The position numbers were made by a program, and so were the translations under genes. From the NCBI GenBank assembly GCA_913776045.1, contig CAJYOI010000017.1:27128-91127 (forward strand): a stretch of 64,000 nt of DNA. Reading direction: 5' to 3'. Positions 28,391 to 57,955 of the stretch are shown here, in pieces. The first letter of the stretch is position 1; each line of letters starts with the position of its first letter. The DNA comes from an uncultured Sphingomonas sp. Lineage in GTDB: Bacteria; Pseudomonadota; Alphaproteobacteria; Sphingomonadales; Sphingomonadaceae. Under the pieces are notes generated by a model, which worked only from the letters and a program-made list of their open reading frames with translations, was not told the origin of the DNA and searched no databases.

Positions 28391-30100
28391 GTGAGGAGAG
28401 GAATCGCAGTCGCGATCGCGGGCGTCGTGGCAGCCGCCGGCGGCGCATCGGACGCGCAGTCGCCGGTGCCGGCCGCGCGCACGATCGAGCGTCACTCCCT
28501 CTACGTTTCGGTTCGCGACGGGACCCGCCTGGCGGTCAACGTCTATCGCCGGGCCGGCGACCCCGGCCCCGTCCCGACCATCTTCGCCTTCACTCCCTAT
28601 CGCGCGCGCTACCTCAAGGACGGCGCCGTCGCGCAGACCTTCGATCAGGCCATCTTCGGATTTCCCGCGCTGGTCCAGCAGGGCTATGCCGTCGTCATTG
28701 CCGACGTGCGAGGCAAGGGCGCCTCGTTCGGAGCGCGCCGCGGCTTTCTCGACCGGACGGAGGCCAACGACGGCTACGACCTGGTCGGCTGGATCGCACG
28801 CCAGCCCTGGTCGAACGGCAAGGTCGGGCTGACCGGCTGTTCCTACCTCGGCGGCACGACCATGCTGATCGCGGGCACGCGGCCGCCCGCGGTTCGCGCA
28901 GTCTTCACCGCCGCCACCGACCTCGACAAATACAGCTTCGTCCGCAACGGCGGGGTGACCGCGCAATTCAACACGCGCCCCGACGAGCCGCTGGAGGTAG
29001 ACGCGGCAAGCGTTCCGGTCGATGCCGATCGCGACGGGTCGCTGCTGAAGCAGGCGGTCGCGCAGCACGCGCGCAACACGCCGATGGCCGCGCTGTGGGC
29101 CGGCATGCCCTATCGCGACAGCGTATCGCCGCTGACCGGCACGCGCTTCTGGGAAGAGGTCGGTCCCTACACCCATCTGAAGGCGCTGCGCGACCCGCGG
29201 ATCGCCTGGTATTTCTGGAGCAATTGGGAGGACGAGCCGACCGAGCAGATGATCCTTGCGGCGCGCAATATCCCGGGCAAGCTGATCCTCGGGCCGGGCA
29301 GCCACTGCGAAGGTCCGGCCCAGTTCGACATCGCTGCCGAGCAGCGACGCTTCTTCGACCGGCATCTGAAGGGGATCGACAACGGCATCGACCGCGAGCC
29401 GCGCTACGCTTGGTGGCGGGAGGACGGCGCGGGCGGGGCGATGGTGCGCGCGAACCGGTTGCCGGGCGTCGGCATCCGGCGTACCCCGCTGTTCCTCGCC
29501 GCCGACACCGGCGCGTCTTTGCAGGCACCGCGAGTGGCGGCGACGCGGCGCTTCCAGGTTCGCTACGACCTTGGAGCCGGTGAGTATTTTCCGTTCTGGC
29601 CGCGCCCGCTGACCGGCTTCGGGCCGAGCTGGACGACGCCGCCGCTCGCTGCCCCGGCACGGTTGCAGGGCTATCCGATCGCGCGGATCCGCTTGGCGAT
29701 CGATCGGCGCGACGCGATTCTGTTCGCCTATGTCGAGGACGTGGCACCCGACGGGAAGGTGCGGGTGATCGCGCACGGCCGGCTGGCCGCGTCGCACCGC
29801 ATGATCTCGACACCGCCGTACGACAAGCTCGATCTGCCCTATCATTCGGGCCTGCGCGCCGATGTGGCGCCGATGACGCCCGGCATGCCGGCGGAGCTCG
29901 CCTTCAGCCTGTCGCCGCGCGCTTACACCTTCGCCGCCGGGCACCGCATCCGCGTGACGCTGACCGGGGCCGACCCGCGTCAGCGCGACCTGAAAGTGCT
30001 CGCGACCGATCCCGCGCCCGAATTCACGGTCCTGACCGGCGGCGCCGCCGGCTCCCGGATCGACCTGCCGTTCGAGGCGACACCGACATTCCAACGATAA
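28391..30100 (+). CDS. CocE/NonD family hydrolase
   Basis: X-Pro dipeptidyl-peptidase (S15)-type alpha/beta hydrolase, 569 aa, probably an esterase or amidase. GTG at 28391 is chosen over the upstream ATG at 28340, because AGGAGG lies 4 bases before it and it begins a clean signal peptide (RRGIAVAIAGVVAAAGGASDAQ). The nucleophile is Ser151 in GLTGCSYLGG; the acid is probably in WSNWEDEPTEQ and the His is in GPGSHCEG. The C-terminal beta jelly-roll domain (PARLQGYPIARIRLAID onward) is present. It is followed after 19 bases by TonB receptor 2. Confidence 0.88.
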   Translation: MRRGIAVAIAGVVAAAGGASDAQSPVPAARTIERHSLYVSVRDGTRLAVNVYRRAGDPGPVPTIFAFTPYRARYLKDGAVAQTFDQAIFGFPALVQQGYAVVIADVRGKGASFGARRGFLDRTEANDGYDLVGWIARQPWSNGKVGLTGCSYLGGTTMLIAGTRPPAVRAVFTAATDLDKYSFVRNGGVTAQFNTRPDEPLEVDAASVPVDADRDGSLLKQAVAQHARNTPMAALWAGMPYRDSVSPLTGTRFWEEVGPYTHLKALRDPRIAWYFWSNWEDEPTEQMILAARNIPGKLILGPGSHCEGPAQFDIAAEQRRFFDRHLKGIDNGIDREPRYAWWREDGAGGAMVRANRLPGVGIRRTPLFLAADTGASLQAPRVAATRRFQVRYDLGAGEYFPFWPRPLTGFGPSWTTPPLAAPARLQGYPIARIRLAIDRRDAILFAYVEDVAPDGKVRVIAHGRLAASHRMISTPPYDKLDLPYHSGLRADVAPMTPGMPAELAFSLSPRAYTFAAGHRIRVTLTGADPRQRDLKVLATDPAPEFTVLTGGAAGSRIDLPFEATPTFQR

Positions 30101-30119: not shown

Positions 30120-32816
30120 ATGAAGAGCATCCGCACCGCCGCACTGGCCACGACCGGCTTGGTCCTGCTTGGCCTGTCCTCGCCGTCCTTCGCGCAGCAG
30201 ACGACGCCGGCCAGTGAACCCGACGTGCAGGCGCCCGAGGCCGGTCCTTCGACGATCACGCAGGATCAGGTCGAACGCGACATCATCGTGACGGGCAGCC
30301 GCGTCCGGGGGGCGGCACCGGTCGGGTCGACCGTCATCGCGCTCGGCCGCGAAGACGTCATCGCTTCGGGTGCGGTGACGACGGACCGCCTCATCAAGCA
30401 GATCCCGCAGGTGTTCGACCTGGGCGTCAGCGAGAATTCGCGTGGCCAGTCGGGCGGCAACGGCAACATCACCTATGGCAACAGCGTCAACCTGCGCGGC
30501 ATCGGCCCCTATGCGACGCTGATCCTGATCGACGGCCACCGCGCGGTGAACAACAGCCGCGCGCTCGACCCGTCAGTCATCCCGACGCTTGGCCTGGAAC
30601 GGGTCGAGGTCGTCGCCGACGGCGCCTCCGCCATCTATGGCTCGGATGCGGTCGCAGGTGTCGTCAACCTTATTCCTCGCCGCTCGCTGGACGGGGTCGA
30701 AGCCTCGGGCCGCTACGGCTTCGGCGACGACTTTCACGAATGGCAGGTGGGCGTCGCGGTCGGGCACAAGTGGAGCCAGGGCCAGATCATGCTGGCGTTC
30801 GAACATGTCCAGCGATCGAACCTCAGCGGCGACGACCGGTCGTTCTTCACCTCCGACCAGCGCGCGTCCGGCGGCAACGACTATCGTGTCAACCGCTGCG
30901 CGCCGGGCACCATCATCGCCGGTGGCACCACCTATGCCATTCCCACCGGCGGGCTGACCCAGGCGAATGCGGGCAGCCTGGTCGCCGGCACCGCCAATCT
31001 GTGCAACGACCTGATCGGGCAGGACCTGTTTCCGAAACAGGCGTACGATTCGGCGAACATGACGGTCACGCAGGAACTGGGTGACCGGGTGACGCTGTTC
31101 GCGGACGGCTTCTTCTCGCGCCGCACTTTCTTCCGCAACCCGGCCTCGCAGAGCGCGACGCTGACCGTGCCGCAGACTAACGCCTTCTTCGTGCGGCCGG
31201 CGGGCTTCACCGGCACGAGCTACACGATCGCCTATAATTTCATCAACGACCTGCCGCTCAACGGCAATCCGGGCAGCGCCGAGAACTGGCAGATTTCGCC
31301 GGGCGTGCGCGTCAAGCTGTTCGGCGATTGGGAGGCCGAGGGCATCTACAGCTACGGCCAGGGCGAGGATCAGTCCTATACCTATCGCGGCCTGACCACG
31401 GCCAATCTCAACGCCGCGCTCGCCAGCAGCAATCCGGCGACGGCATTCGATCCCTATGGTCTGGGCCGTACGACGGAGGCGACGCGCCAGCTGATCAGCA
31501 ACAGCATCTTCTTCGCTCCCACGCTCAACCATTTCACCGGCTACGAGGCGCGGCTGAACGGCACGCTGTTCGCGTTGCCCGGCGGCGACGTGAAGCTGGC
31601 CGCGGGATACGAGGGGCAGGAGATCCTGACCATCCTCGGCTCCGCGCGCGGCGTCGTGGGGACGCCGGTCGCTTATCGCTATTTCACGCGGCGGGTCGAC
31701 TCGGGCTATGCTGAGGTTCTGCTGCCGATCTTCGGTGCCGAGAATGCGATCCCCGGCTTCCGCAAGCTCGTGCTGAATGCGGCCGTCCGCTATGACAAGT
31801 ACAGCGACGTCGGCAAGACGACGAACCCGAAGTTCGGCGTCAATTGGACGCCGGTCGACGGACTGACGTTGCGCGGCAGCTACGGCACGTCGTTCCGCGC
31901 GCCGCTCATCTCGCAGATCTACGGGAATTCGAACAATCTGTTCGTCCAGACCTATCAGAACCCCGGCGGGTCGCCGATCGTCGGCGTCGCGCTGTCGGGG
32001 CAGAATCTGGGGCTGCGGCCGGAGGAGGCGACGACGTGGTCGGTGGGCGGCGACCTCGACATCGGCAGCCGGCTGCGCTTCAGCCTGACCTATTTCAACG
32101 TCGAATACACCAACCAGGTCGAGGCCTATCTGTCCGATCTCGCCATCCTGTCGCGAGAACAGTCGTTCGCCGGGCTCGGCATTATCACCCGCGGGGCGGA
32201 GGCCGCGACGCGCGTGCAGCAGCTGATCGCGTCGGGCATCGGCGTCGTCGGCGCGCTGCCGACCAATGTCACGCTGTTCGTCGACGGGCGCAACAACAAC
32301 CTGGGCAAATCTCTTACGGAAGGGATCGACTTCGTCGCCAACTACACGCTGCCGACCGACAATTTCGGCCGGTTTCAGGTCAACCTGAGCGGCACCTTCC
32401 TGACCCGCTACGAAGTCGCGATCACCGAGAATGCGGCGCTGATCGATCGCCGCAACACGATCTTCTTCCCGCTGAAGTTCAAGGCGCGCGGGGCAATTGC
32501 CTGGGATCTCGATCCGGTGCGCCTGCAGGTCCAGGCGACGCATGTCGGCGGCTATACCAACAACGCCGTCACCGTGCCCCAGCAGGTGAAGAGCTATACG
32601 CCCGTGGACCTGAGCGTGGCCTGGGATCTGGGCGGCAGCGACAAGCGCGGTATCCTGGGCGGGCTGACGCTGGGGGCAGAGGTCCGCAATGTGTTCGACC
32701 TCCAGCCGCCGTTCGTCAATCTGGCGCCGTCGGGCAACGGCAGCGGCGGCTATGATGCGACCGCGGCCAATCCGATCGGCCGGCAGTTCGCCGTGTCGCT
32801 GCGGGCGAAGTTCTGA
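30120..32816 (+). CDS. TonB-dependent outer-membrane receptor 2
   Basis: 898-aa importer closely related to receptors 1 and 3. The ATG follows GGGGAGGA. The signal peptide ends SSPSFAQQ; the TonB-box-like DIIVTGSRV is near residue 56; plug motifs are VNLRGIGPYATLILIDGHR and VEVVADGASAIYGSDAVAG. The barrel ends VSLRAKF. It lies directly behind the CocE/NonD hydrolase and converges with the CoA operon. Substrate unknown. Confidence 0.93.
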   Translation: MKSIRTAALATTGLVLLGLSSPSFAQQTTPASEPDVQAPEAGPSTITQDQVERDIIVTGSRVRGAAPVGSTVIALGREDVIASGAVTTDRLIKQIPQVFDLGVSENSRGQSGGNGNITYGNSVNLRGIGPYATLILIDGHRAVNNSRALDPSVIPTLGLERVEVVADGASAIYGSDAVAGVVNLIPRRSLDGVEASGRYGFGDDFHEWQVGVAVGHKWSQGQIMLAFEHVQRSNLSGDDRSFFTSDQRASGGNDYRVNRCAPGTIIAGGTTYAIPTGGLTQANAGSLVAGTANLCNDLIGQDLFPKQAYDSANMTVTQELGDRVTLFADGFFSRRTFFRNPASQSATLTVPQTNAFFVRPAGFTGTSYTIAYNFINDLPLNGNPGSAENWQISPGVRVKLFGDWEAEGIYSYGQGEDQSYTYRGLTTANLNAALASSNPATAFDPYGLGRTTEATRQLISNSIFFAPTLNHFTGYEARLNGTLFALPGGDVKLAAGYEGQEILTILGSARGVVGTPVAYRYFTRRVDSGYAEVLLPIFGAENAIPGFRKLVLNAAVRYDKYSDVGKTTNPKFGVNWTPVDGLTLRGSYGTSFRAPLISQIYGNSNNLFVQTYQNPGGSPIVGVALSGQNLGLRPEEATTWSVGGDLDIGSRLRFSLTYFNVEYTNQVEAYLSDLAILSREQSFAGLGIITRGAEAATRVQQLIASGIGVVGALPTNVTLFVDGRNNNLGKSLTEGIDFVANYTLPTDNFGRFQVNLSGTFLTRYEVAITENAALIDRRNTIFFPLKFKARGAIAWDLDPVRLQVQATHVGGYTNNAVTVPQQVKSYTPVDLSVAWDLGGSDKRGILGGLTLGAEVRNVFDLQPPFVNLAPSGNGSGGYDATAANPIGRQFAVSLRAKF

Positions 32817-32874: not shown

Positions 32875-35202
32875 TCAGCGTCGCGCGCGGTAGCGGGTGA
32901 CGTCGTCGTCCAGGAAATTCTCGATCCGGCGATCGATCGCGGCGGCATCGCTGGCTTCGCGATTATAGTTGTCGAGGTCGAGCGCGAGCACTGGCACCCC
33001 GGCCCGGCGCAGCGCTCGCAGGACGAACGGGTCGGCATCCGACAGCGCGATCGCACCGTCGATCGCGTGGCTCTCCGCCTCGCGGACATGCCAGGCGCCC
33101 GCCCAGGTCGGCATGCGCAATTCGTCGCCCATGGTCACGAAGCGGGCGGCCAGCGCGCGCATCGGGTCCTGTCCCGGCGCGGCCCGGCGGATATAGCCGT
33201 CGGCGGCGAGCGCGAGGTACATCGACCAGACGAAGACCGCGCCGTGGCTCTCCTCCCAGCGCTGGTAGAAGCCCATGTCGCTCCACATGCCGCGACCGAC
33301 CCACATCAGCCGCAGGCGCTCGTTCGGGCACGCCGCCTCACCGGCCGCGTGCCGCGCCGCCACCTCGTCGTGGAATGCCTTTGCCGCATCCCGTGCCCAT
33401 ACCGTCCCGCGGTGCCACTGCGGCACCATCGTTGCCGGCATGGTGTCGCTGATCGACACCGGCGCCGGGTGCGTGCGGGCGATCAGGTCGCGCGTGCGGC
33501 GGTAATAGTGCTCCTGCTCGTTGACCAGGTTCAGGATCTCCACGAACCGCGCCTGGTCGAAACGCCGGTCGCTGACCGCCTCGATCCGCTCGATCAGCGC
33601 GCGCAGCTCGGCGACCATCAGGTCGAGCCGTTCGGGCTCCAGCACCGTATCCCAGCGGTCTTGCAGGCTGTCCCACCAGTCGATGGGGAAGTCCGTGCGC
33701 GACTCGATGCTGCGTTCGAACAAGAACAGGTCGGCGCCCGTCTCTCGCGCCCAATGGTCAAAGATGCGCGGTGTCGCGTCGGTGCCGAGCACGGCCTGGA
33801 CGAAGCTCGGCCGCGGCAGGCCGCCCCATGGCGCCTGGCCTGCATCGGTGTCGAACGCGGCGGCGATGCCTTGCGCGCTGTAGGCCTCGGTATCGCTCGG
33901 ATAGCCATGCTCGGCCAGCAGCGCGAAGTAGCGGCCCGACTGCTGCTTGGCCGCGGCGATCGACGCCCACCATTGGTTGACGACGAACGGCACGCCCATC
34001 GCGCGCAGTACCTCCTGCGGGGAGTTGGCGTTGACGACCGCAAGCGGTGCCCCGGCGTCGACCTCGGCGCGGACCTGCTGGAACCATTCGCGCTGATAGG
34101 TGCCGAAACTGGCGAGCGAGGCGAGTGACTTGCGGCTGCGGCGGCCCGATGGCGGCGGGGCGGGGCGGGGCGCGGCGGGCGGCGCGACCGCCTGTGACGC
34201 CGTACCGACACGCTCGACCGCGAATCCCTGCGCGGCAAGCTCCCGCGCGAAATAGCCGGCGTCCCATGCCGCCGCCTCGTCACCCGCGGACTCGACGATG
34301 ATGGCCTGCCGGACGCCGAGCGCGCGCATCCGCGCAGCAGCATCCGCCAGGCGATCGGGCGCACGCAGCAGCATCCGCGGGCTCAGCCGCGTCGGGTCGG
34401 CGAGGGCATCGAGCGAGGCGGGGCTGTCGACCCAGCCGGCGACCAGCGGATCGCCCCAATCCTGGTCGTCGCCGATCGCGATCAGGCCGCGTGCGGTCAG
34501 GTCGCGCTGGCGCGCGGTCGAGTAGTGCGGTGATCCGATCACGAAGACTGGCGTTCCCACCGCTATGTCGCCCCGACGCACCGCATCGACCAGCGTGCCC
34601 CACGCCTTGGACTCCAGCGCATAGGCGGCACCGATGGCAGCGATCCGCGCAACGCCGGTCAGACCCTCCAGCAGGGCGGGGCGGACGCGCTCCATCGCCG
34701 CGTGATCGGCCAGCCCGTCGACATCGCGCCGTCCGCCGATGCGCTCCAGCCAAGCGTCCAGCTGATCGAGCCGCGCGCGGTTGTACGTCTGGCTCGACGC
34801 GCGCGGCAGATGCGCCAGATCGAGCATATGGATCGGCCTCGCCGCCACGTCCCCGTTGCGGATCAGATCGCGGATCGTCGCGAACAGCTGCGGCAGGTCG
34901 CTGTCGGCATGGGTAAAGATCAGTGGATCGCCGCTCGTGTCCGCCGCGATCTGTTGCAGCAGCGACCGGCCGCGCTGGCTGAGCACGCCGCCGCCGACCA
35001 GCGCATCGGCCTGCGGCGTCGCGCCCGGCTGCGGCACCATCCGCACCGGCGTCAGCCCGCTCGCCCGGATCAGCGCATATGGTGCGTCCTGCCCGAGCAC
35101 GCGGACCACGCACCGGCCCTCCGCACGCAGGGTCTGGGCGACGGCGCCGGGATCGTCGCATGCGGCGATGAGGCGGGCGAGGGCCGCGGCCGCATCCTCC
35201 AT
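32875..35202 (-). CDS. Fused 2-hydroxyacyl-CoA dehydratase/benzoyl-CoA reductase-like protein
   Basis: 775-aa protein with two repeats of the HgdB/BcrB fold. The first half is recognisable from YALIRASGLTPVRMVPQPG, the second from NANSPQEVLRAMGVPFVVNQWW and a C-terminal VPVLALDLDNYNREAS. Known family members are O2-sensitive two-subunit [4Fe-4S] enzymes with conserved Cys ligands and an ATP-driven activator. Here only three Cys are seen (in AACDD, GRCVV and AACPN), none in the expected motif, and no activator gene is present. It overlaps the upstream CaiB gene by 1 base (ATGA). The reaction is unknown. Confidence 0.75.
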   Translation of the reverse strand: MEDAAAALARLIAACDDPGAVAQTLRAEGRCVVRVLGQDAPYALIRASGLTPVRMVPQPGATPQADALVGGGVLSQRGRSLLQQIAADTSGDPLIFTHADSDLPQLFATIRDLIRNGDVAARPIHMLDLAHLPRASSQTYNRARLDQLDAWLERIGGRRDVDGLADHAAMERVRPALLEGLTGVARIAAIGAAYALESKAWGTLVDAVRRGDIAVGTPVFVIGSPHYSTARQRDLTARGLIAIGDDQDWGDPLVAGWVDSPASLDALADPTRLSPRMLLRAPDRLADAAARMRALGVRQAIIVESAGDEAAAWDAGYFARELAAQGFAVERVGTASQAVAPPAAPRPAPPPSGRRSRKSLASLASFGTYQREWFQQVRAEVDAGAPLAVVNANSPQEVLRAMGVPFVVNQWWASIAAAKQQSGRYFALLAEHGYPSDTEAYSAQGIAAAFDTDAGQAPWGGLPRPSFVQAVLGTDATPRIFDHWARETGADLFLFERSIESRTDFPIDWWDSLQDRWDTVLEPERLDLMVAELRALIERIEAVSDRRFDQARFVEILNLVNEQEHYYRRTRDLIARTHPAPVSISDTMPATMVPQWHRGTVWARDAAKAFHDEVAARHAAGEAACPNERLRLMWVGRGMWSDMGFYQRWEESHGAVFVWSMYLALAADGYIRRAAPGQDPMRALAARFVTMGDELRMPTWAGAWHVREAESHAIDGAIALSDADPFVLRALRRAGVPVLALDLDNYNREASDAAAIDRRIENFLDDDVTRYRARR

Positions 35203-36449
35203 CAGATCACGCCCCGTGCGCGCAGGTCGTCGATCCGGTCTGGCGAATAGCCGAGCGTCCCGACCAGCACACGATCGTTATGGTCGCCGATGCGGATCGG
35301 CAGCACATCGTCGAATCCGGTATCCGCATCGGAGAAGACGATCGGGACGCCCGCCGTCCGCAGGTCGATATCGGCTTCGTAGTACGGGTGCGCCACCGGA
35401 ACCGCCTCGTGCCGCTCGATCACGCGGCGGTCGAGCAGGGCTTCGTCGGGATGCCGCACCGGCGCGACCGGAACGCCCTCTGCCTCCAGCGCGGCGACCG
35501 CATCGGCGACCGACAGGCCGCACGACCATGCGGTGATGTTCGCCTCCAGCAGCGCGGCATTGGCAACCCGCGCGTCGCGGGTGGCGAAGCGCGGGTCCTC
35601 GGCGAAGTCGGGGCGCTTCATCGCGCGGAACAGACCCTGCGCCAGCTTCTCGTGCACGGCGACCAGCGCGATGAAGCCGTCGCGGCATTCGAAGACGCCG
35701 AACGGCGACAGGCGCTGCACCGTCAGTCCCGTCCGAGCCTGCATCCCCGCCGCCGCCATCGCCGACCAATTCTCGATCGCGACGAAGCTGGTCAGCGCGC
35801 CGAGCATCGACACGTCGATATGCTGGCCGACCCCGGTGCGGTGCCGCTGTTCCAGCGCCGACAGGATGCCGATGACCGAGAACACGGGCGCCAGCATGTC
35901 GGCGATCGGGATGCCGATGCGCACCGGCGGCGCATCGGCCTCGCCGCTCGCATACATCGCGCCCGACAGGGCCTGGATGATGATGTCCATCGCCTTGCCG
36001 CCTTCGGGCGCGGTCGCGCCGAAGCCGGACAGCGAACAATAGATGATCCGCGGATTGGCGGCCTTCGCGGCCGCATAGCCAATGCCCAGGCGGTCGGCGG
36101 TGCCGGCGGTGAAATTCTCGACGACGATATCGGCGCTGCGCACCAGGTCCAGGAAGACCTCGGTCGCCCCGGGCGCCTTCAGGTTCAGCGACACACCCAG
36201 CTTGCCGCGCGCTCGCGTCAGGTGCGACACCGACAGGTCGTCGTCATGCACCTTTTCGACCGTGATCCCGTCGCGACCGACATAGGGGCTGTTGTCGCGC
36301 GCCAGGTCGCCGCCGCGCGGATCCTCGACCTTGATCACCTCGGCGCCCAGGCCCGCCAGCAGCAGCGTCGCATAGGGACCGGCCAGCGCCCGCGTCAGGT
36401 CGATCACGCGCAGGCCCTCGAGCGGCCGTTGACGGTGCAATTCGGTCAC
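35202..36449 (-). CDS. CaiB/BaiF CoA-transferase family protein 1
   Basis: Class III CoA-transferase fold, 415 aa, expected to move CoA between organic acids in the cytoplasm. The GTG start overlaps the stop of the preceding CaiB gene (GTGA); readings further upstream are out of homology. Motifs are DLTRALAGPYATLLLAGLGAEVIKVE, DIVVENFTAG, and the catalytic-Asp segment GGKAMDIIIQALSGAM, which is intact. It is followed with overlap by the dehydratase-like gene, suggesting that it activates or recycles that enzyme's CoA substrate. Confidence 0.92.
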   Translation of the reverse strand: MTELHRQRPLEGLRVIDLTRALAGPYATLLLAGLGAEVIKVEDPRGGDLARDNSPYVGRDGITVEKVHDDDLSVSHLTRARGKLGVSLNLKAPGATEVFLDLVRSADIVVENFTAGTADRLGIGYAAAKAANPRIIYCSLSGFGATAPEGGKAMDIIIQALSGAMYASGEADAPPVRIGIPIADMLAPVFSVIGILSALEQRHRTGVGQHIDVSMLGALTSFVAIENWSAMAAAGMQARTGLTVQRLSPFGVFECRDGFIALVAVHEKLAQGLFRAMKRPDFAEDPRFATRDARVANAALLEANITAWSCGLSVADAVAALEAEGVPVAPVRHPDEALLDRRVIERHEAVPVAHPYYEADIDLRTAGVPIVFSDADTGFDDVLPIRIGDHNDRVLVGTLGYSPDRIDDLRARGVI

Positions 36450-37609
36450 GAGAGTCTTCCTTCGAGGGCGGTGATCTGGGATTCGGAATAGCCGAGCGCG
36501 GCAAGAACGGTGCGGGTGTCGGCGCCGGGCGCGGAGGCGGCGTGGGCGGGGGCGGTGTCCCCCAGCCGCACGGGGCTGCCGATCTGGCGGGCGGTGCCTC
36601 CGCCGGGCAAGGCGACGTCGATCGCCATGCCGCGTGCGACGTTGTGCGGATCGTCGAGCGCCTCGGCGATCGTCAGGACCGGCGCATATTGCGTGCCGGC
36701 GCGCTCGAAGATGCCGAGCCATTCGTCGCGTGGCCGGGTCGCGATCCGCTCGGCGATGCGCGCCTTCATCTCGGCCCAACCGGCGCGGTCCATCTGGCGG
36801 TCGGCCAGCTCGGGCAGGCTGATCGCCTCGACAAACAGCCGCCAATAGCGCGGCTCCATGTCGGTGGTCACGACGTACAGGCCATCGGCGGTCCGCCAGA
36901 TGCCGCTGTCGGCGCGGTGCATGCCCTTGGGCGGAGCCTCCGACAGATCGACATTGCGTGAGACGACGTTGGCGATCAGCGGCAGCGAGGCGTCGGACAT
37001 CGCGATATCGACGTGCTGACCCTGCCCGGATGTCGTGCGGGCGAGCAGCGCGGCGAGGATGCCGATGACGGCATTCGACCCGCTCAGCAGATCGGCGACG
37101 GGAACGCCGGGGAAGGCGGGACGCTCGGGGTCCTCGCCCATCCGCGACAGCGCGCCCGCGATCGCCAGCGCCACGGGGTCATGCCCGGGGCGGCGCGCAT
37201 AGGGCCCGGTCTGGCCGCACAGCGTGACCGAACAATAGACCAGCCGCGGGTTGAGCGCCGCCATCTCGGGCCAGCCATAGCCCATGTCGGCCATCACGCC
37301 GGGGCGGTAATCCTCGACCAGCATGTCGGCATCGGCGATCAGCCGGTGGATCGCCCCGCGGCCGTCCGCGCTGCCTGGGTCGATCAGCACGCTCTTCTTG
37401 CCGCGTGCGAAGACGTCGCGGGCGCGCAGCCGGGCGTTCTCATCCTCCGACAATTTGTCCCAGCCGAAGACCTTGCGCTGCTTGGCCAGTTCGCGCGGGT
37501 TCTCGATGCGGATCACCTCGGCGCCCAGTTCGGCTAGCAGCCAGGTGCAATAGGGGCCGGGCAGGAATTTGCTGAAATCGACCACGGTCAGCCCGTGAAG
37601 TGCGTTCAT
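36446..37609 (-). CDS. CaiB/BaiF CoA-transferase family protein 2
   Basis: 387-aa class III CoA-transferase. The ATG at 37609 overlaps the preceding stop (ATGA), and the open frame beyond it has no homology. Motifs are DFSKFLPGPYCTWLLAELGAEVIRIE, DMLVEDYRPGVMADMG and RRPGHDPVALAIAGAL with the catalytic Asp retained. It is overlapped by the next CaiB gene by 4 bases. Substrate unknown; alpha-methylacyl-CoA racemase activity is an alternative for this superfamily. Confidence 0.92.
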   Translation of the reverse strand: MNALHGLTVVDFSKFLPGPYCTWLLAELGAEVIRIENPRELAKQRKVFGWDKLSEDENARLRARDVFARGKKSVLIDPGSADGRGAIHRLIADADMLVEDYRPGVMADMGYGWPEMAALNPRLVYCSVTLCGQTGPYARRPGHDPVALAIAGALSRMGEDPERPAFPGVPVADLLSGSNAVIGILAALLARTTSGQGQHVDIAMSDASLPLIANVVSRNVDLSEAPPKGMHRADSGIWRTADGLYVVTTDMEPRYWRLFVEAISLPELADRQMDRAGWAEMKARIAERIATRPRDEWLGIFERAGTQYAPVLTIAEALDDPHNVARGMAIDVALPGGGTARQIGSPVRLGDTAPAHAASAPGADTRTVLAALGYSESQITALEGRLS

Positions 37610-38583
37610 GCCGCATCCCCCAGCGACGACACCCACAAGGGCCCCGGCAGCGTCACGCCGTCGACATCGCGCCACAACCCGCGCGCGTGCAGATGTTCGC
37701 TGGCCAGCGCATCCTCCGGCGTGTCGATCCACGACAGGCCCAGGCCGTTTTCGGTCGACAGGCGGCCGAGCTCGGCGCGGGTGTGGCGCAGGAAGAACGC
37801 CTCGACGATCGCTTCCCAGTCCAGCAGCGTCTCGCGTGGCAGGTCGGCGACGAGCATCGCGTCCCAATCGACCGCGCCCAGCTGCCCCGCGCCGTCGCCC
37901 AGCACCGACACCATCCCGCGCATCATCGGCGGGTTGTCGACCAATGCCCAGGTCACCCAACCATCCGCACAGGGCCAGATCTGGCGGACACCCGATTTGC
38001 CCCGGACCAGCAGATTGCCGGTCCGCCCGCCGACCCGCCCCGTCCAGCCATAGGTCAGCGGCTCGCGGTAGTTGGCGAGCACCGCCGCCTGATAGGCCGA
38101 GACCTCGACCAGCTGTCCGCGTAGCGTCGCTGCACGGGCATGCAGCGCAGTCAGCGCGCCGATCACCGCCTGGATGCCGGCCAGCGCATAGGCCTGCCGC
38201 CCCGGCAGGGTCAGCGGTGCGCGGTCGGGGTCGCCGACGATGGTCATCAGCCCCGATCGCGCCATCAGCGTCAGGTCGGTCTCGGGCCGATCGTCGTTCG
38301 GCCCACCGGGCAGAAAGGGGGCGACGACCACGTCGATCAGCGCCGGATTTGCCGCGGCGAGTGCGGCATGGTCGCGGCCGGGGTTGCGGAACAGGATGTC
38401 AGCGCGGGCGAGCAAGGCGTCGGCCTCGTCCGCCGAGACCTGTCGGCTGCCGTGGGTCCAGGCGCGCGCGCCCGGCGTCGGGCGGACTACATCGGCACCG
38501 AGTTCGGCGAGCATTCGCCCAGCCATCTCGCCAAGACCCGTCGTCAGGTCGACGACGATCAGGTGCGACAACATGCCGGTCAT
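37606..38583 (-). CDS. Short divergent CaiB/BaiF family protein 3
   Basis: 325 aa against roughly 390-410 for normal members. The N-terminal Rossmann part is compressed (DLTTGLGEMAGRMLAELGADVV, then ADILFRNPG) and the segment that normally carries the NRNK-type CoA-binding region is missing. The ETDLTLMARSGLM region retains an Asp and the rest aligns (QAYALAGIQAVIGALTALHARAA). It may be a non-catalytic or heteromeric partner of a neighbouring paralogue. It overlaps both neighbours by 4 bases. Confidence 0.82.
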   Translation of the reverse strand: MTGMLSHLIVVDLTTGLGEMAGRMLAELGADVVRPTPGARAWTHGSRQVSADEADALLARADILFRNPGRDHAALAAANPALIDVVVAPFLPGGPNDDRPETDLTLMARSGLMTIVGDPDRAPLTLPGRQAYALAGIQAVIGALTALHARAATLRGQLVEVSAYQAAVLANYREPLTYGWTGRVGGRTGNLLVRGKSGVRQIWPCADGWVTWALVDNPPMMRGMVSVLGDGAGQLGAVDWDAMLVADLPRETLLDWEAIVEAFFLRHTRAELGRLSTENGLGLSWIDTPEDALASEHLHARGLWRDVDGVTLPGPLWVSSLGDAA

Positions 38584-39770
38584 GCCAGCGCTCCCGTCTC
38601 GACAAGCTCGCGAACGCGGTCGGCGTCCATGCCGAGCAGGTCGACGAACACGGCATGATTATGCTCGCCCAGATTGGGCGGCGGGCCGACCGCGATCATG
38701 CTTTCGGAAAACCGCAGCGGCGGTGCCGGCATGTCGCAGGCGCCAAGCTTCGAATGAACGATCGGCTGGAAGTGGCCGCGCTCGATCAGTTCGGGGTCGG
38801 TGAAGACATCGCGTCCGTCCGCGACCGGCTCGGCCGGGATGCCGGCGGCGGACAGGCGGTCGGCCAGCACATGCTTGTCCTGCCCGCGCGTCCATGCCGA
38901 CAGCGCGGCATCCAGCGCGTCCTCCGCGCCCTTGCGTCCGGCGAGCGTCGAGAAGCGGGGATCGTCGATCGCCGCCAGTTCGGCCAGCCGCGCCCAGTCG
39001 GCATCGTCGCGCACCGCGATCGCCACCCATTGTTCATGCCCGCGTGCCGGAAAGGCCCCGTGCGGCGCCATCCCTGCGTCGCGGTTGCCGGGCTTCTCCG
39101 ACCGGCCGGCCTGACGCTCGGCGAAGACATCGGCCATGACATGGACCAGCGGCTCGACCTGGCTGATGTCGATATGCTGACCCTCACCTGTCCGGCGGCG
39201 ATGCTCGAGCGCCGCGAGCATCGCGACGGTCGCGAACATCGGCGCGACGACGTCGCCGTACGCGAACGGCGGCATGTGCGGCCCTCGATCCTCCCAGCCC
39301 GACAGCGCTGCCATTCCCGACAGCGCGCCCGCCGAATTGCCATAGCCGCGCATCGTCCCCAGCGGGCCGCTGCGTCCCGCGACGCTGACGCTTACCTGGA
39401 TGATATCGAGGTTGATCGCCCGCAGCGTGTCGAACGACAGGCCGATGCGATCCATATAGCCGTGGCTGAAATTCTCGACGACGATGTCGGCCCAGCCGAC
39501 TAGCCGCTTGGCGACCTCCACCCCGCGCGGATCACTCAGGTTGATCGTCACCGCCTGCTTGCTGGTGTTGGTGATCGCGAAGAAAGTCGACGCATCGGGA
39601 TCGCGCTTGCCGCCGGCGAACGGCGGGCTCAGCCGGCCGAGGTCCAGCCGCTTGCGCGATTCGATCTTGATGACGGTCGCGCCCAGATCGGCAAGGTCCT
39701 TCGTCGCGCGCGGACCCGCACCGACCCAGGAGAAATCGGCGACCGTCACGCCGGCGAGCGGAGCGCTCAT
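38580..39770 (-). CDS. CaiB/BaiF CoA-transferase family protein 4, lacking the usual Asp
   Basis: 396 aa from the ATG at 39770, chosen because GAAGGAGGA precedes it. Motifs are DFSWVGAGPRATKDLADLGATVIKIE and DIVVENFSHGYMDRIG. The catalytic-Asp position reads MRGYGNSAGALSGM, so the Asp is replaced. Some natural subfamilies have G-Y-G in place of the Asp segment, so a different chemistry or a structural role is possible. It overlaps the DctP and third CaiB genes by 4 bases. Confidence 0.9.
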   Translation of the reverse strand: MSAPLAGVTVADFSWVGAGPRATKDLADLGATVIKIESRKRLDLGRLSPPFAGGKRDPDASTFFAITNTSKQAVTINLSDPRGVEVAKRLVGWADIVVENFSHGYMDRIGLSFDTLRAINLDIIQVSVSVAGRSGPLGTMRGYGNSAGALSGMAALSGWEDRGPHMPPFAYGDVVAPMFATVAMLAALEHRRRTGEGQHIDISQVEPLVHVMADVFAERQAGRSEKPGNRDAGMAPHGAFPARGHEQWVAIAVRDDADWARLAELAAIDDPRFSTLAGRKGAEDALDAALSAWTRGQDKHVLADRLSAAGIPAEPVADGRDVFTDPELIERGHFQPIVHSKLGACDMPAPPLRFSESMIAVGPPPNLGEHNHAVFVDLLGMDADRVRELVETGALA

Positions 39771-40804
39771 CGCGCGTCCTCCTTCGAACATTGGATGGGA
39801 CCGGCCGCGATCAGGCGCTGCGCGGCGTCGTAGATCGGCAGCGCATCGATGCCGACGGATCGCAGACGCACGGCCTGCGCGCGTGCATCCGTGTTGTAGA
39901 GCGCATCAAACGCGCGCTGTTCGCGTGCGGGCAGAGCGTAGAAGCGGATGCCCTCGCGCCGGCCATAGTCGATGCCGGCCGCCTCCGCCTTCAGCAGCTG
40001 CGTGTTGAGCGCACCCTCCCACACCGGCTTGCCCGCGGTCAGCACGGCCTGCAGGTCGGCGGGCAGGCGACGCCAGGCGCGGTCGGACATCGCGCGAGCC
40101 GGATAGGCGCCGCGGCTGAAGCGCAGCGCAGTGAAGTGCCGCGCGACTTCGGCGAAATGCAGGCTGCGGATGGTGTCCGCGGGTGCGACGACGCCGTCGA
40201 TCACGCCCTTGGCCAGCGCGGAATAGACTTCGCCCATCGGCATGTTCACCGGATCGGCGCCCAGCTGCTTTAGCATGTCGATCGCATCGCTCTGCGCACG
40301 CAGCCGCAGTCCCCGCAGGTCGGCGAGCGTGCGCACCGGGCGGGTGCGCGTCAGAATGCCGGGAAAATTGCCGCCTTGGACCGCGAGCACGTGCAGCCCT
40401 TCGGTCTCGTGATCGAACTGCGGGAAGCGCGCGGCCAGGCAGTCATAAACCGCGACCTGATCGGGAATGTCGCGCACCCCGCCATAGAAGGCCGCCTGAC
40501 CGCGCAGCAGATGCGCGCCGCCGCGCGAATAGATGGGGGTGATCAGCCCGATGTCGGCGATGCCGTGGCGGATCTCCTCCATGCTCATGTCCGACGACAG
40601 CAGCGCGCCCGACCAATAGGGCTTGAACGCGATCCGCCCGCCGCTCTTCGCGGTGACCCACCGCATCCATTCCTGGTCCGCCAGCCCGAACGGATGGCTC
40701 GGCGGATAGGGGCTGGCATAGGTCAGCACATAGTCGGCGGTCGGCGTCGGCGCGGCGGAGCAGCTTGCCACCAGCAAGGCGGCCAGGATCGGTAGGATGC
40801 GCAT
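39767..40804 (-). CDS. TRAP transporter solute-binding lipoprotein (DctP type)
   Basis: Periplasmic receptor of a TRAP transporter, 345 aa. The start at 40804 gives a lipoprotein signal (MRILPILAALLVASCSAAP). Family motifs are GGRIAFKPYWSGALLSSDMSMEEI, LADLRGLRLRAQS and LGADPVNMPMGEVYSALAKGVIDG. The Arg in RGLRLRAQ that pairs with carboxylates in most TRAP receptors is present, so the ligand is probably an organic acid. Overlaps the permease gene by 1 base. Confidence 0.92.
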   Translation of the reverse strand: MRILPILAALLVASCSAAPTPTADYVLTYASPYPPSHPFGLADQEWMRWVTAKSGGRIAFKPYWSGALLSSDMSMEEIRHGIADIGLITPIYSRGGAHLLRGQAAFYGGVRDIPDQVAVYDCLAARFPQFDHETEGLHVLAVQGGNFPGILTRTRPVRTLADLRGLRLRAQSDAIDMLKQLGADPVNMPMGEVYSALAKGVIDGVVAPADTIRSLHFAEVARHFTALRFSRGAYPARAMSDRAWRRLPADLQAVLTAGKPVWEGALNTQLLKAEAAGIDYGRREGIRFYALPAREQRAFDALYNTDARAQAVRLRSVGIDALPIYDAAQRLIAAGPIQCSKEDAR

Positions 40805-42108
40805 CAGCCGGCCGTCACGCTGGGAAGCCACAGCGTGACCAACGGAAAGGCGATCAGCATGGCGAGGTGGACGAAATCGGCGACCAGGAACGGCACGATA
40901 CCGCGGAAGATGGCGCCGAGCGGAATATCCTTCCCGATCGCCTGGATGACATAGACGTTCAGCCCGAGCGGCGGATGGACGAAGCCGATCTCCATCGTGC
41001 GGACCAGGAAGATGCCGAACCAGATCGGACTGTAGCCGAGCTCGATCGCGATCGGCAGGAAGATGGGCGTCGTCAGCAGCATCAGCGCAAGCCCGTCGAG
41101 GAAAGAGCCGAGCACGAGCAGCAGCACGGCCATCGCGATGATCGCGACCGTGGGGCTCGCGTGCAGGTTGCGCACCGTCTGCGACATCAGGTCGGCGATG
41201 CCGGTCACGCTGATGAAGGTCGCGAACAGAATCGCACCGAAGATGATCAGGTAGATCATGCCCGTGGTAGACAGCGTCTTGGCAAAGGCCTCGCCGATCG
41301 CCGCGCGATTGAAAGCGCCGCGGACCGCGCACAGCAGAAAGGCTGCGACGACCCCGACCGAAGCGGCTTCGGTCGGGGTGAACCAGCCGATCATCAGCCC
41401 GCCGATGACGAAGGTGACCAGTAGGATGATGTCGGCGATCCCCAGGAGGCCCCGCATGCGGTACGCCCAGGGCACACGCGCCGACGGCGGGCCGAGATCC
41501 GGGCGCAGCGCGCACAGCACGGCAATGGCGATCATGTAGAACAGCGCCTGGCTGAAACCCGGCACGACCGCCGCGACGAACAGCTTGCCGATCGACTGTT
41601 CGGCGATGATGCCGAAAACGATCAGCGCCCCCGACGGCGGGATCAGCGCCCCCAGCGTCCCGCCGGCCGCCAGCGCGCCCGCGGCAAAGCCGGGATTGTA
41701 GCCGGCACGCCGCATCTCCGGCAGCGCGGCCGAACCGACCGTCGCCACCGTCGCCAGGCTGGACCCGCTGATCGCGCCGAACCCGGCACAGCCCGCGATC
41801 GACGCCAGCCCCAGCCCGCCGCGGCGATGCCCGACGAAGCGCGCCGCCACATCGAAGAAATCCCGGCTTGCACCCGCCGCGAAACACAGATGCGCCATCA
41901 GCAGAAACAGCGGCAGTACACCCAGTTCGTACTTCGTCGCGACCTCGAACACGACGACGCCCGCCTTCGCCAGCGCCGCTTCTGGCGAGATCATGACCGC
42001 GATGCCGACGATACCGGTCAGCGCCAGGCTGACGCCGATCGGCACGCCCAGCGTCAGCAGGACGAGCAGCCCGAGGATGCCGATCAGGCCGACCAGCTCA
42101 GGCGTCAT
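40804..42108 (-). CDS. TRAP transporter large permease (DctM type)
   Basis: Sodium-coupled inner-membrane permease, 434 aa with about twelve membrane segments. The ATG at 42108 (MTPELVGLIG) is preferred to an upstream TTG. Typical motifs are LTLGVPIGVSLALTG, SGSSLATVATVGSAALPEM, GGTLGALIPPSGALIVFG and HPPLGLNVYVIQAI. It overlaps DctQ by 11 bases and DctP by 1. Confidence 0.93.
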   Translation of the reverse strand: MTPELVGLIGILGLLVLLTLGVPIGVSLALTGIVGIAVMISPEAALAKAGVVVFEVATKYELGVLPLFLLMAHLCFAAGASRDFFDVAARFVGHRRGGLGLASIAGCAGFGAISGSSLATVATVGSAALPEMRRAGYNPGFAAGALAAGGTLGALIPPSGALIVFGIIAEQSIGKLFVAAVVPGFSQALFYMIAIAVLCALRPDLGPPSARVPWAYRMRGLLGIADIILLVTFVIGGLMIGWFTPTEAASVGVVAAFLLCAVRGAFNRAAIGEAFAKTLSTTGMIYLIIFGAILFATFISVTGIADLMSQTVRNLHASPTVAIIAMAVLLLVLGSFLDGLALMLLTTPIFLPIAIELGYSPIWFGIFLVRTMEIGFVHPPLGLNVYVIQAIGKDIPLGAIFRGIVPFLVADFVHLAMLIAFPLVTLWLPSVTAG

Positions 42109-42619
42109 GCGACGCCCCAATCACGGCGTGCCGAACGAAGATGCCGGCCACCAGCAGCAATCCGACGACCATCAGCAATCGCAGCCAGCGTAAGGGAACG
42201 TGCAGCAGTTCCGACCGCTCAAAGCCGCCCCACAGGTCGACCAGCAGCAAGATCGACCCCGCCGCCAGCAATCCAACGGTGATCGCCGCCAGCACATCGG
42301 CCAGGGTGGCAAGTCTTAGGCGCCAGGTCGGGCGCAGGCGTTCGGTTAGAATGTGGACCGCTGCATGGCCGCGCGCCAGCGTCACACTGACCATCGCCGA
42401 TGTCGCGATCAGGACGATGGCGGTCTGCACGATCTCGATCGCGCCCAACAGCGGAAACCCTGTGTGGCGCCCGAGAACGGCAATGCCGTCCGCCGCCATG
42501 GCCAGCAGCAGGCCGGTCGCGCCGATCGCAAAAGCGACCTTGCCCGCGGGTCCTGTCGGGCGGGCCGCAGGCGCTTCGTCACCCTGCGCCGGCGCGGCAT
42601 CGACGATTGCGTCGGACAC
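42098..42619 (-). CDS. TRAP transporter small permease (DctQ type)
   Basis: Four-helix inner-membrane subunit, 173 aa from a GTG at 42619 that follows GGGAGGGG; the open frame further upstream crosses the promoter region. Helices include VAFAIGATGLLLAMAADGIAVL and the family segment SVTLARGHAAVHILTERL. It is first in the CoA operon, so transport and CoA activation are co-expressed. Confidence 0.88.
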   Translation of the reverse strand: MSDAIVDAAPAQGDEAPAARPTGPAGKVAFAIGATGLLLAMAADGIAVLGRHTGFPLLGAIEIVQTAIVLIATSAMVSVTLARGHAAVHILTERLRPTWRLRLATLADVLAAITVGLLAAGSILLLVDLWGGFERSELLHVPLRWLRLLMVVGLLLVAGIFVRHAVIGASHDA

Positions 42620-42736: not shown

Positions 42737-43222
42737 GTGACGGGGCAACGGGATCACAGCAAAGCGAGCAATAGCGACGCGCCTGGACGGCTTCGGCTTG
42801 GTCGGCTGGGTGATTATGTCGGCTTTCGCATGCGTCGCGTGCAGAACCAGCTATCGGCGGGCTTCGCGGCCGCGACGACCGGCTATGGCATCCGGGCCGG
42901 CTTGTTTTCATCGCTCGCGCTGATCGAGGCCAATCCCGGCATTTCACAGCAAGAGCTGTCCAGTACGGTCGGCCTGGACAAGTCGATCACGGTCCAGATC
43001 GTCGACGACCTCGAACGCCGGGGCTGGGCGCGACGGACGCGCTCCACCGTCGACCGCCGCCGCCACTCGCTGACGATCGAGCCTTCGGGCGAGAAGGTGC
43101 TCGACGAGCTATTTACGATTATGCTCGATGTCGAGGCTGAGGTGCTTGCGCAGTTAAATGCAGAAGAGCGGCCGCTATTTGATGCCGCGCTGGATCGCAT
43201 GTACGGCGTCTTCCACCGCTAA
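42737..43222 (+). CDS. MarR-family regulator 1
   Basis: Winged-helix regulator of about 161 aa, divergent from the TRAP-CoA operon and probably its controller. Recognition core: NPGISQQELSSTVGLDKSITVQIVDDLERRGWARR, then the wing STVDRRRHSLTIEPSG. The start is uncertain: GTG at 42737 has a purine-rich AAGCGGGG upstream, but GTG at 42722 is also possible. Confidence 0.85.
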   Translation: MTGQRDHSKASNSDAPGRLRLGRLGDYVGFRMRRVQNQLSAGFAAATTGYGIRAGLFSSLALIEANPGISQQELSSTVGLDKSITVQIVDDLERRGWARRTRSTVDRRRHSLTIEPSGEKVLDELFTIMLDVEAEVLAQLNAEERPLFDAALDRMYGVFHR

Positions 43223-43316: not shown

Positions 43317-43811
43317 ATGGTGATGGCAGGACCGAGCCACGACGTTGGCGTCGTGAGCCAACGCATCGGCTACAATCTGCGCCGCGCCGCTGCGATCTTT
43401 TCCGCCGATTTTACGCACGCGGTCGAGGGGACCGGGATGCGGCAGATCCTCATCGGTATCCTGTCCGTTGTCGCGGCGAACCCAGGGGTCAATCAAGGTA
43501 CCGCCGGCCGCCTGCTCGGTATTAAGCCCGCGAACATGGTCGCATTCATCACCGAATTGATCAACGCCGGACTAATCGTCCGCGACATCGATCCGATTGA
43601 TCGCCGCGCCCTCACTTTGACCGTCACGCCGAGCGGCGCTGGCCTTCTCGACGAATGCACGCAGCGGCTGGATTCGCATGAGGACGAATTGCTCACCGGC
43701 TTCACGGATGTGGAGAAGGCGACCTTCCTAGACTTCCTCAACCGCGTAACCCGATGCTCGGGCGCTGTAAGACCAAATGCACCATCCGTTGGGGGAGGGG
43801 GTATAGGTTGA
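43317..43811 (+). CDS. MarR-family regulator 2, C-terminus possibly altered by an IS
   Basis: 164 aa related to MarR regulator 1. Recognition helix region: NPGVNQGTAGRLLGIKPANMVAFITEL; wing DIDPIDRRALTLTVTPSG. The last ~16 residues (from GAVRPN) are low-complexity and coincide with GGCGCTGTAAGACC at 43761, which resembles an IS6-type terminal repeat. The original C-terminus was therefore probably replaced. ATG at 43317 or 43323 may be used. Confidence 0.8.
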   Translation: MVMAGPSHDVGVVSQRIGYNLRRAAAIFSADFTHAVEGTGMRQILIGILSVVAANPGVNQGTAGRLLGIKPANMVAFITELINAGLIVRDIDPIDRRALTLTVTPSGAGLLDECTQRLDSHEDELLTGFTDVEKATFLDFLNRVTRCSGAVRPNAPSVGGGGIG

Positions 43812-56644: not shown

Positions 56645-56923
56645 ATGCCTGCCAAGAAGCACAAGCCCGAGGAGATCATCGGCAAGCTGCGTGAGGTTGA
56701 GATCGTGCCGGGCCAGGGCGGCACGACCGCCGAGGCATGCCGGCGCATCGCGGTCAGCGAGCAGACGTGCTATCGCTGGAGGAAGGAATATGGCGGTCTG
56801 AAGACGGACCAGGCGCGGCGTATGAAGGATCTGGAGAAGGAGAACCTTCGACTGCGGCGTGCGATCTCCGACCTGACACTGGACAAGCTGATCTTGCAGG
56901 AGGCGGCCCGGGAAAACTTCTGA
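56645..56923 (+). CDS. IS3-family transposase OrfA
   Basis: 92-aa DNA-binding half of the transposase, complete. The N-terminus MPAKKHKPEEIIGKLREVE begins the helix-turn-helix (TTAEACRRIAVSEQTCYRWR), and a C-terminal leucine-zipper-like region follows (LEKENLRLRRAISDLTLDKL). The ATG at 56645 follows GAGGAAGGGA. OrfB lies in the -1 frame, consistent with programmed frameshifting in this family. Confidence 0.9.
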   Translation: MPAKKHKPEEIIGKLREVEIVPGQGGTTAEACRRIAVSEQTCYRWRKEYGGLKTDQARRMKDLEKENLRLRRAISDLTLDKLILQEAARENF

Positions 56924-57928: not shown

Positions 57929-57955
57929 ACCAGCTAAATCATTGAGATAGCTGGT
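57929..57955 (-). terminator. Inverted repeat at the 3' end of tRNA-Glu
   Basis: ACCAGCTA (57929-57936) and TAGCTGGT (57948-57955) form a perfect 8-bp stem with an 11-base loop. One arm includes the encoded CCA end of the tRNA. It could be a terminator or 3'-processing stem; it could also be a footprint of integration at the tRNA end. Confidence 0.5.

Follow-up and report, generated by a model that had tools for sequence, protein, structure and literature searches.

The 2-hydroxyacyl-CoA dehydratase/benzoyl-CoA reductase (HAD/BCR) family is the textbook case of difficult radical chemistry, with an ATP-driven activator and sensitivity to oxygen. HadA is the coenzyme A (CoA)-transferase partner in the HadBC class of pathway, and in the phenyllactate system a CaiB-family CoA-transferase, FldA, feeds the HGD-family pair FldBC, which needs both iron-sulfur (Fe-S) clusters and an activator. 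Here we describe a relative of these enzymes encoded in a 64,000-nucleotide stretch of an uncultured Sphingomonas sp. (assembly GCA_913776045.1, contig CAJYOI010000017.1, positions 27,128 to 91,127; the whole stretch is referred to as the window). A single chain of 775 amino acids combines both subunits of such an enzyme, carries none of the cluster ligands and belongs to a genome with no match to the activator families searched. The operon that ends with this protein suggests hitherto unstudied chemistry on the HAD/BCR fold. According to a review (PMC11574389), each cluster of the family is held by three Cys and has an open fourth iron, the beta cluster is a relay and an activase is needed; the review explains the cluster radical chemistry and the activase by the fact that alpha-elimination requires removal of a beta proton beyond the capacity of protein bases.

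An eight-gene operon ending in a fused dehydratase-like gene

Eight minus-strand genes run from 42619 to 32875 in the order DctQ, DctM, DctP, four CaiB genes (C1 to C4) and the gene for the 775-amino-acid HGD-like protein. The initial annotation had described this run, and each gene was found in its place, with overlaps of 1, 4 or 11 bases (DctQ/DctM 11, DctM/DctP 1, DctP/C1 4, C1/C2 4, C2/C3 4, C3/C4 4, C4/HGD 1). Likely starts are GTG at 42619 (DctQ) and 36449 (C4), and ATG at 42108 (DctM), 40804 (DctP), 39770 (C1), 38583 (C2), 37609 (C3) and 35202 (HGD). The C1 start is probably 39770 and not 39791, because AGGAGG stands upstream of the former. Pfam finds HGD-D (PF06050) once (E 1.1e-40), CoA_transf_3 four times (7.4e-40 to 4.3e-101), and DctP, DctM and DctQ, all three parts of a tripartite ATP-independent periplasmic (TRAP) transporter; these matches and the gene overlaps bear out the proposed coupling of TRAP and CoA-transferase genes. 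Recurrence of the operon in relatives rules out chance or artefactual open reading frames. The host genome measures 3.15 Mb in 68 contigs and is 99.86% complete, and the fused protein is its single PF06050 match. The genes of the operon, with the two halves of the fused protein, are as follows.

32875..35202, minus strand: fused 2-hydroxyacyl-CoA dehydratase/aryl-CoA reductase-like protein, 775 amino acids, without Fe-S ligands (PF06050; Foldseek HadB 2.0e-15, BzdO 2.6e-14, MbdO 2.0e-13)
34201..35202, minus strand: N half of the fused protein, residues 1-334, BzdN/HadC-like (relay-cluster subunit), by profile and Cys columns
32875..34131, minus strand: C half of the fused protein, residues 358-775, HadB/BzdO/MbdO-like (active-site subunit), by profile, Cys columns and conservation
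35202..36449, minus strand: CaiB C4, class III CoA-transferase, catalytic Asp184 (PF02515 4.3e-101)
36446..37609, minus strand: CaiB C3, class III CoA-transferase, catalytic Asp kept (PF02515 5.4e-90)
37606..38583, minus strand: CaiB C2, short putative pseudo-CoA-transferase, Tyr for the catalytic Asp (PF02515 7.4e-40)
38580..39770, minus strand: CaiB C1, class III CoA-transferase, catalytic Asp kept, possible partner of C2 (PF02515 7.9e-96)
39767..40804, minus strand: DctP, TRAP solute-binding protein (PF03480 9.2e-33; PDB matches 4n6d, 4nap, 4pgn)
40804..42108, minus strand: DctM, TRAP large permease (PF06808 3.6e-92)
42098..42619, minus strand: DctQ, TRAP small permease (PF04290 1.9e-12)

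The N terminus of DctP (39767-40804) contains VASC, which we take to be a lipobox-like motif, and this binding protein may be a lipoprotein. Lipoprotein TRAP binding proteins are unusual in Gram-negative bacteria.

Searched alone, the C half of the fused protein matches PF06050 at E 1.1e-40 and the N half at E 0.011. When the N half was aligned with unfused relatives (12 rows), all 12 members matched PF06050 at an E of at most 0.1, and the resulting profile matched BzdN at 2.9e-51 and HadC at 5.2e-40. Because of these two matches, the label of a double HgdB/BcrB fold given in the initial annotation is correct; the C-half profile matches MbdO (5.8e-33), HadB (3.7e-27) and BzdO (5.4e-25). An AlphaFold (AF2) model, computed from a 40-row alignment of 40 of the 55 fused proteins, has a mean predicted local distance difference test score (pLDDT) of 90.2 and a predicted template modelling score (pTM) of 0.92, with a low-confidence linker at about residues 337-356. 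Foldseek placed HadB, BzdO and MbdO chains at the top (E 2.0e-15 to 5.5e-13), then double-cubane proteins and partner chains, with unrelated folds appearing from E 6.2e-3. The predicted fold is therefore HadBC-like, and the unrelated fold named beforehand as an outcome that would count against the annotation did not emerge. Profile and fold agree in placing the protein in the HGD-D/HAD-BCR superfamily, both structurally related subunits lie in one chain, as had been claimed, and the 775-amino-acid chain is a complete HadBC/BzdNO-like heterodimer in a single polypeptide.

Cluster ligands and activator

The 2-hydroxyacyl-CoA dehydratases have three ligand Cys in each subunit. The fused protein contains three Cys in its entire length (15, 31 and 625), and at the six ligand columns there is none: Ser occupies 75 and 101, Asp 308, Glu 439 and Thr-Asp 474-475, and the third C-half segment is deleted. 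Absence of the usual ligands, noticed at the outset, was assessed by aligning 100 C halves of the family with 13 Cys-type controls (13 of 15 used; L065 and L066 were dropped) and 99 N halves with 14 controls, all controls being drawn from weak family matches and chosen regardless of Cys. Profile alignment equates the control columns of the C half with Cys84, Cys117 and Cys346 in HadB chain numbering, presumably the published cluster ligands. At column 439 Cys is found in 13/13 controls and Glu in 82 of the 100 family rows. The second ligand falls at 475 in the MAFFT alignment (Cys in 13/13 controls, Asp in 86/100 family rows), and at the third, Cys in 13/13 controls faces a gap in 93/100 family rows. 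An HMMER alignment to HadB and MbdO, read by eye, places the second Cys at 474, where the 90 rows of the core clade have Ser (38), Gly (31), Thr (20) or Asp (1). A recount allowed a Cys to lie up to three residues from the first or second site, or anywhere in the third region; none of the 90 core rows had one at any of the three and all 13 controls had one at each. The possibility of canonical ligands hidden by misalignment was set aside on the strength of the co-aligned controls and this recount. Core C halves are acidic at 439 in 88/90 and at 475 in 87/90 rows, and the third segment is deleted in 90/90. Among the N halves, Cys stands at columns 75, 101 and 308 in 0, 30 and 0 of 99 rows, as against 14/14 controls at each; 87/99 have Asp at 308, and no N half has all three Cys or, by column, even two. 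Ten further homologues of intermediate score, from other genomes, keep Cys at all three C-half columns.

The statement that no activator is encoded holds well beyond the window, since the whole of the host genome gave no match to PF01869 or TIGR00241. TIGR00241 was likewise negative at its cut-off in 37 family genomes, namely the host and 36 to which named loci had led, and in 10 further genomes, making 46 distinct genomes, as one appears to be common to both sets; two family genomes (G538 and G560) have weak partial matches far below the cut-off. Canonical control loci had a TIGR00241 match at cut-off in 5/5 genomes, on the same contig and beside the dehydratase. Canonical Cys accompanied by an activator gene just outside the window, the other outcome named beforehand, was thus not what we found. 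An activator missed through an incomplete genome was set aside given the 46 negative genomes and the completeness of the host's, the one genome to which the completeness figure applies. Class I benzoyl-CoA reductases have four subunits, including ATPase subunits, and clusters; the fused protein has no cluster Cys, and its genome no match to either activator family.

With neither a relay cluster nor an active-site cluster nor an activator, the known one-electron ketyl-radical mechanism is closed to the fused protein. It might still be a radical dehydratase or aryl-CoA reductase if a cluster were held by other ligands and served by an unknown donor. The fold and the CoA-transferase partnership are as in known dehydratases, some members of the wider clade retain C-half Cys (below), and non-Cys cluster ligands do exist in rare cases, according to PMC11574389. 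However, the lack of a full Cys set in every N half, of any ligand Cys or third segment in the core C halves, and of an activator above cut-off in 46 genomes makes this quite unlikely. The initial annotation proposed new chemistry, with elimination or racemisation as candidate reactions; that the chemistry may be new is what we infer from this missing cofactor machinery.

CoA-transferase partners, distribution and neighbouring genes

Within the CoA-transferase set (COA-TRANSFERASES), C1, C3 and C4 keep the catalytic Asp expected of class III CoA-transferases, which is present in 61/61 rows of at least 55% identity to C4 and in 20/20 C1 rows. C2 (325 amino acids) has Tyr or Trp in its place in 21/21 rows, its own included, and falls outside the class III definition in this respect. 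Its best PDB match is 9fn0_A, a subunit of benzylsuccinate CoA-transferase that likewise reads QAY at the catalytic site, and C4 matches chain B of 9fn0 at 1.6e-44. As read from these alignments, C2 is a conserved non-catalytic CaiB pseudo-subunit. In two plasmid relatives a single chain, 694 or 700 amino acids long, joins a C2-like to a C1-like part (the reading at the site of the C2-like half is ambiguous); this arrangement points to a mixed complex of C1 and C2. Many relatives are missing C1 to C3, and a CaiB gene is the constant partner of the HGD-like gene.

The fused protein occurs in 10 other genomes of the genus at 50-76% identity; 7 of them keep the order DctQMP-C1-C2-C3-C4-HGD, and the other 3 have C4 before and other CaiB genes after HGD. 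In a set of 150 near genomes, the fused protein or an unfused form is present in 14 from the same genus (host included), and a fifteenth match, in another family, is weak. A scan of genome contigs with two short peptide patterns, which favours the core clade, returned 173 relatives. The best 80 of these were kept and come from Sphingomonas, Novosphingobium, Caulobacter, Niveispirillum, Alteromonas, gammaproteobacterial metagenome-assembled genomes (MAGs), a Rubrivivax MAG, many Actinomycetota and one Chloroflexota MAG; among those with a name, the proteins nearest to the fused one are from Sphingomonas. The HGD-like protein is accordingly a clade spread over three phyla and not the oddity of one strain. 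Strong family-type matches are rare in even samples of the class (4/385) and the phylum (4/398), each including the host genome, and of Actinomycetota (3/296, centre genome included); nine weaker Actinomycetota loci that were read are Cys-bearing. Several Actinomycetota genomes of about 2-4 Mb (G1046, G1068, G1100, G1111, G1133, G1186 and others) have up to six HGD-family matches each, some of which may be pieces of one gene. Five same-genus genomes (L040-L046) hold one to three unfused HGD-like pairs each, a lineage expansion in which several pairs adjoin TonB receptors, CaiB, RPE65-type oxygenases or enoyl-CoA hydratases.

Neighbours were tallied at 77 of the best 80 loci, 41 on the Pseudomonadota side and 36 from Actinomycetota or Chloroflexota (L073, L096 and L111 were dropped, having fewer than eight genes called, L111 being poorly called). 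Genes of the relatives were called by our own script; neighbours were clustered by single linkage (30% identity), each cluster taking its name from one representative. At 74/77 loci (39/41 and 35/36, respectively) the HGD-like gene directly adjoins a CaiB gene of the same orientation. DctM/DctP genes are present at 36/41 Pseudomonadota-side loci, and among the others a family-3 binding-protein gene is present at 31/36 and a gene of the PaaX cluster at 32/36. Since the importer type swaps between TRAP and ATP-binding cassette (ABC) systems while the CaiB-HGD pair is kept, we argue that CoA transfer and the HGD-like step form the core of the module.

This adjacency, the loss of the only known cofactor and the presence in the same operon of C2, itself a CaiB protein without the catalytic Asp, would also fit an HGD-like protein that catalyses nothing itself and binds CoA esters as a scaffold or chaperone of the CaiB enzymes. 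Such a role is unlikely in view of the conservation of the C half, in which 107 positions are at least 90% conserved in 100 homologues, many with a residue other than the canonical one. These positions include family-specific polar and Trp residues, the C half bears the signatures NQWW (409-412), WW (509-510), QWHRG (595-599) and W704, and both halves are retained throughout, as a pair or as a fusion. The conserved non-canonical positions argue for an active enzyme.

Several further genes of the window belong to types that recur beside HGD-like genes; fractions give their occurrence at Pseudomonadota-side (/41) and Actinomycetota/Chloroflexota (/36) loci.

42830..43222, plus strand: divergent MarR regulator, start possibly upstream, to 42719 (PF01047 1.3e-11; MarR-cluster genes at 31/41)
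43317..43811, plus strand: second MarR-family regulator (MarR_2 3e-6)
30120..32816, plus strand: TonB-dependent receptor, convergent with the operon (PF00593 1.1e-29; TonB receptor at 30/41)
28427..30100, plus strand: CocE/NonD-type (S15/PepX_C) hydrolase, start possibly 28340 (PF02129 4.5e-43; 25/41, 8/36)
26733..28229, plus strand: tannase/feruloyl-esterase family hydrolase (PF07519 4.7e-90; 5/41, 1/36)
21810..22934, plus strand: CapA (PGA_cap) family protein, often within the HGD operon in relatives (PF09587 1e-58; 24/41, 29/36)
20635..21813, plus strand: cytochrome P450, an occasional neighbour in relatives (PF00067 6.3e-23; 5/41, 8/36)
15843..17219, minus strand: MmgE/PrpD family protein, an occasional neighbour in relatives (PF03972 1.6e-51; 4/41, 3/36)

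Three plasmid records carry a related block with CocE, CapA, TonB-receptor and TRAP genes, to which two of them add MmgE/PrpD and one adds tannase; on the Croceicoccus plasmid the block is followed by genes for an acetate-CoA ligase family protein, a p-hydroxycinnamoyl-CoA hydratase/lyase, a DUF3237 protein and an aldehyde dehydrogenase. At the Sphingomonas guangdongensis locus (L108), seven genes from the right-hand part of the window (GntR, TonB, P450, major facilitator superfamily and others) stand beside C4-HGD at 73-87% identity. Two proteins without a Pfam match share these surroundings. One of 342 amino acids (22934-23962) adjoins CapA and has a 79% identical copy on the Novosphingobium ES2-1 plasmid, beside CapA, a TonB receptor, tannase and MmgE/PrpD. 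The other, of 494 amino acids (54023-55507), has a copy near HGD in L108 at 85% identity and others at 66-75%. Partial tyrosine recombinase and IS91-type transposase sequences lie on the left flank (13378-14422), and transposase and integrase-core pieces on the right (56645-57771), next to tRNA-Glu (57952-58026); the catabolic region bracketed by these pieces may be a mobile island. A single specific substrate could not be fixed from the neighbours, as the hydroxycinnamate-type genes next to the Croceicoccus cluster and the RPE65- or VanA-type oxygenases that adjoin some paralogues or relatives point one way and MmgE/PrpD, MatC/CitMHS and CapA another.

A proposed cluster-free reaction and its relation to known systems

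With moderate confidence we read the operon as serving acid import, CoA transfer and then, most likely, a redox-neutral lyase or hydro-lyase step by the cluster-free fused protein, the acid probably stemming from plant-type esters. The host is taken to be aerobic, like its Sphingomonas relatives. After TonB-dependent uptake, the CocE and tannase-type hydrolases would cleave plant-type esters and release a carboxylic acid, which the TRAP transporter would import. Class III CoA-transferases would then form the CoA thioester: C4 in most relatives and, in the version found here, also C1 (perhaps with its dead partner C2) and C3, where C1/C2 and C3 may act on further acids or on the product. The CoA ester would pass to the fused HadBC/BzdNO relative for the redox-neutral step, which would take place in a pocket that is rich in Trp and has been remodelled. 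Candidates for acid-base catalysis or for binding a divalent metal are His597, Arg598, Arg672 and Arg687, together with Glu439, which occupies the place of a former ligand, and Asp475, which falls on a second such place or beside it.

Several observations weigh against this reading. The ester idea comes from the neighbours, and each type of hydrolase is present at part of the loci only. The placing of residues at the former cluster sites depends on sequence alignment; with the second C-half column uncertain by one, Asp475 may neighbour the ligand site instead of replacing its Cys. Glu439 and Asp475 are not universal, since 475 is Pro or Ala in Geodermatophilaceae and 439 varies in deep sphingomonad paralogues. 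Thirty of the 99 N halves keep one Cys and, allowing a few residues of tolerance, 3/99 have Cys near two sites. Moreover, the wider clade is not uniformly free of ligands: beyond the core clade, six different C halves have Cys at 439 and near 474-475, namely L049, the L041 gene at 14228-15556, the unfused plasmid forms of Novosphingobium EMRT-2, Novosphingobium ES2-1 and Croceicoccus marinus, and one from genome G473. L049-type members read Cys-Asp-Cys around 474-475. A third-region Cys is present in L049 and the L041 gene; in L148 and L150 it lies within the tolerance zone, off the control column, and three other deep paralogues and one of Rhizobium SSA_523 have the third-region Cys only.

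The N partners of these six have no Cys at the three N-half columns (the first is a gap in five, and one N gene, L171, was called short), and no activator was found in the three genomes of Cys-bearing forms that were searched (G162, G072 and G473). Therefore, a cluster in these members would have no access to the known route of reduction; the full relay Cys set and the activator are missing from all members examined. Three plasmid-type C halves (L147, L148 and L150, about 14900-16230) have, close to the sites of the former ligands, a CxxC and a CDC pattern of Cys that may be a different metal site, and they lack relay Cys.

Such members, together with the nearly constant acidic residues at 439 and 475 of the core, would suit a mononuclear divalent metal that is bound by Glu439, Asp475 and neighbours close to where the cluster used to sit and acts as the Lewis acid of a hydratase/dehydratase or lyase, with perhaps a non-reduced, aconitase-like cluster in the Cys-bearing forms. 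We consider this rather doubtful, because the metal site is read from sequence, one of its two columns shifts between alignments, and both residues vary in the lineages just named.

Both phylogenetic trees place nine Cys-type rows on one side of a fully supported branch. The first tree, which omits fused rows from same-genus genomes, gathers the fused rows, including Klenkia and Modestobacter, in a nested group interrupted by two fragments (L109 and L092). Unfused pairs thus look ancestral, the fusion most simply arose once, and it is probably the derived state. Many independent fusions were set aside: "fused" needs three label changes in this tree, and both interrupting rows are cut by contig ends. 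The second tree (85 rows) also omits near-copies, contig-end fragments and three added rows. In it the six Cys-bearing rows fall at two separate points within the family, five of them together with a row that lacks Cys, and the deepest branch lacks Cys as well, details being unsure given the long branches; the idea that Cys-bearing members are the earliest branches was rejected on this ground. A possible, still tentative history is that a radical Fe-S fold became a redox-free CoA-ester enzyme by steps, in which the activator and relay set were lost, C-half Cys lingered in a few members (conceivably as an aconitase-like Lewis-acid site), the core acquired a Trp-rich pocket with carboxylates and perhaps one metal ion, and fusion and spread across phyla followed.

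It is very unlikely that this is an ordinary catabolic operon of a CoA-dependent kind that has been described before and whose dehydratase is mis-annotated. NCBI plasmid records do call the C half of unfused Cys-bearing relatives a "2-hydroxyacyl-CoA dehydratase family protein", but the same records call the N half a "hypothetical protein", and the matches listed from full-text literature (subscription papers and preprints being outside the scope) included nothing on an Fe-S-free HGD member or on this operon. The automatic name may mislead for these proteins. They mark a module, so far uncharacterised and probably catabolic, of Sphingomonas, Novosphingobium, Caulobacter, Amycolatopsis and Streptomyces, and their clade offers a defined set of canonical, partly Cys-bearing and Cys-free paralogues for testing a change of mechanism.

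Compared with described systems, the CoA-transferases come closest to BbsEF (9fn0; which chain is BbsE and which BbsF is our assumption), with C2 like chain A, including QAY for the catalytic Asp, though shorter, and C4 like chain B. The donor of BbsEF is succinyl-CoA, according to PMC10818641. HadBC (PDB 3o3m) has the fold of both halves, as beta-like and alpha-like subunits, whereas the protein described here is one chain without cluster Cys, third ligand or activator and has family-specific Trp at 509, 510, 517, 700 and 704, partly in inserts. BzdNO and MbdON (8s02 and 9g87), class I benzoyl-CoA and 3-methylbenzoyl-CoA reductases, provide the best profile matches (BzdN for the N half, MbdO for the C half), but the fused protein has no cluster ligands and its genome no activator-family ATPase. 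The order from a CaiB enzyme to an HGD-family protein appears analogous to FldA/FldBC, with neither the clusters nor the activator found here. IpdAB-type enzymes are CoA enzymes whose fold has given up its ancestral chemistry for a hydrolase or lyase role in aerobic catabolism. Their fold is unrelated to that of the fused protein and the likeness would lie in the repurposing; a conserved clade that has neither cluster ligands nor activator argues that the HAD/BCR fold can likewise be used for something else.

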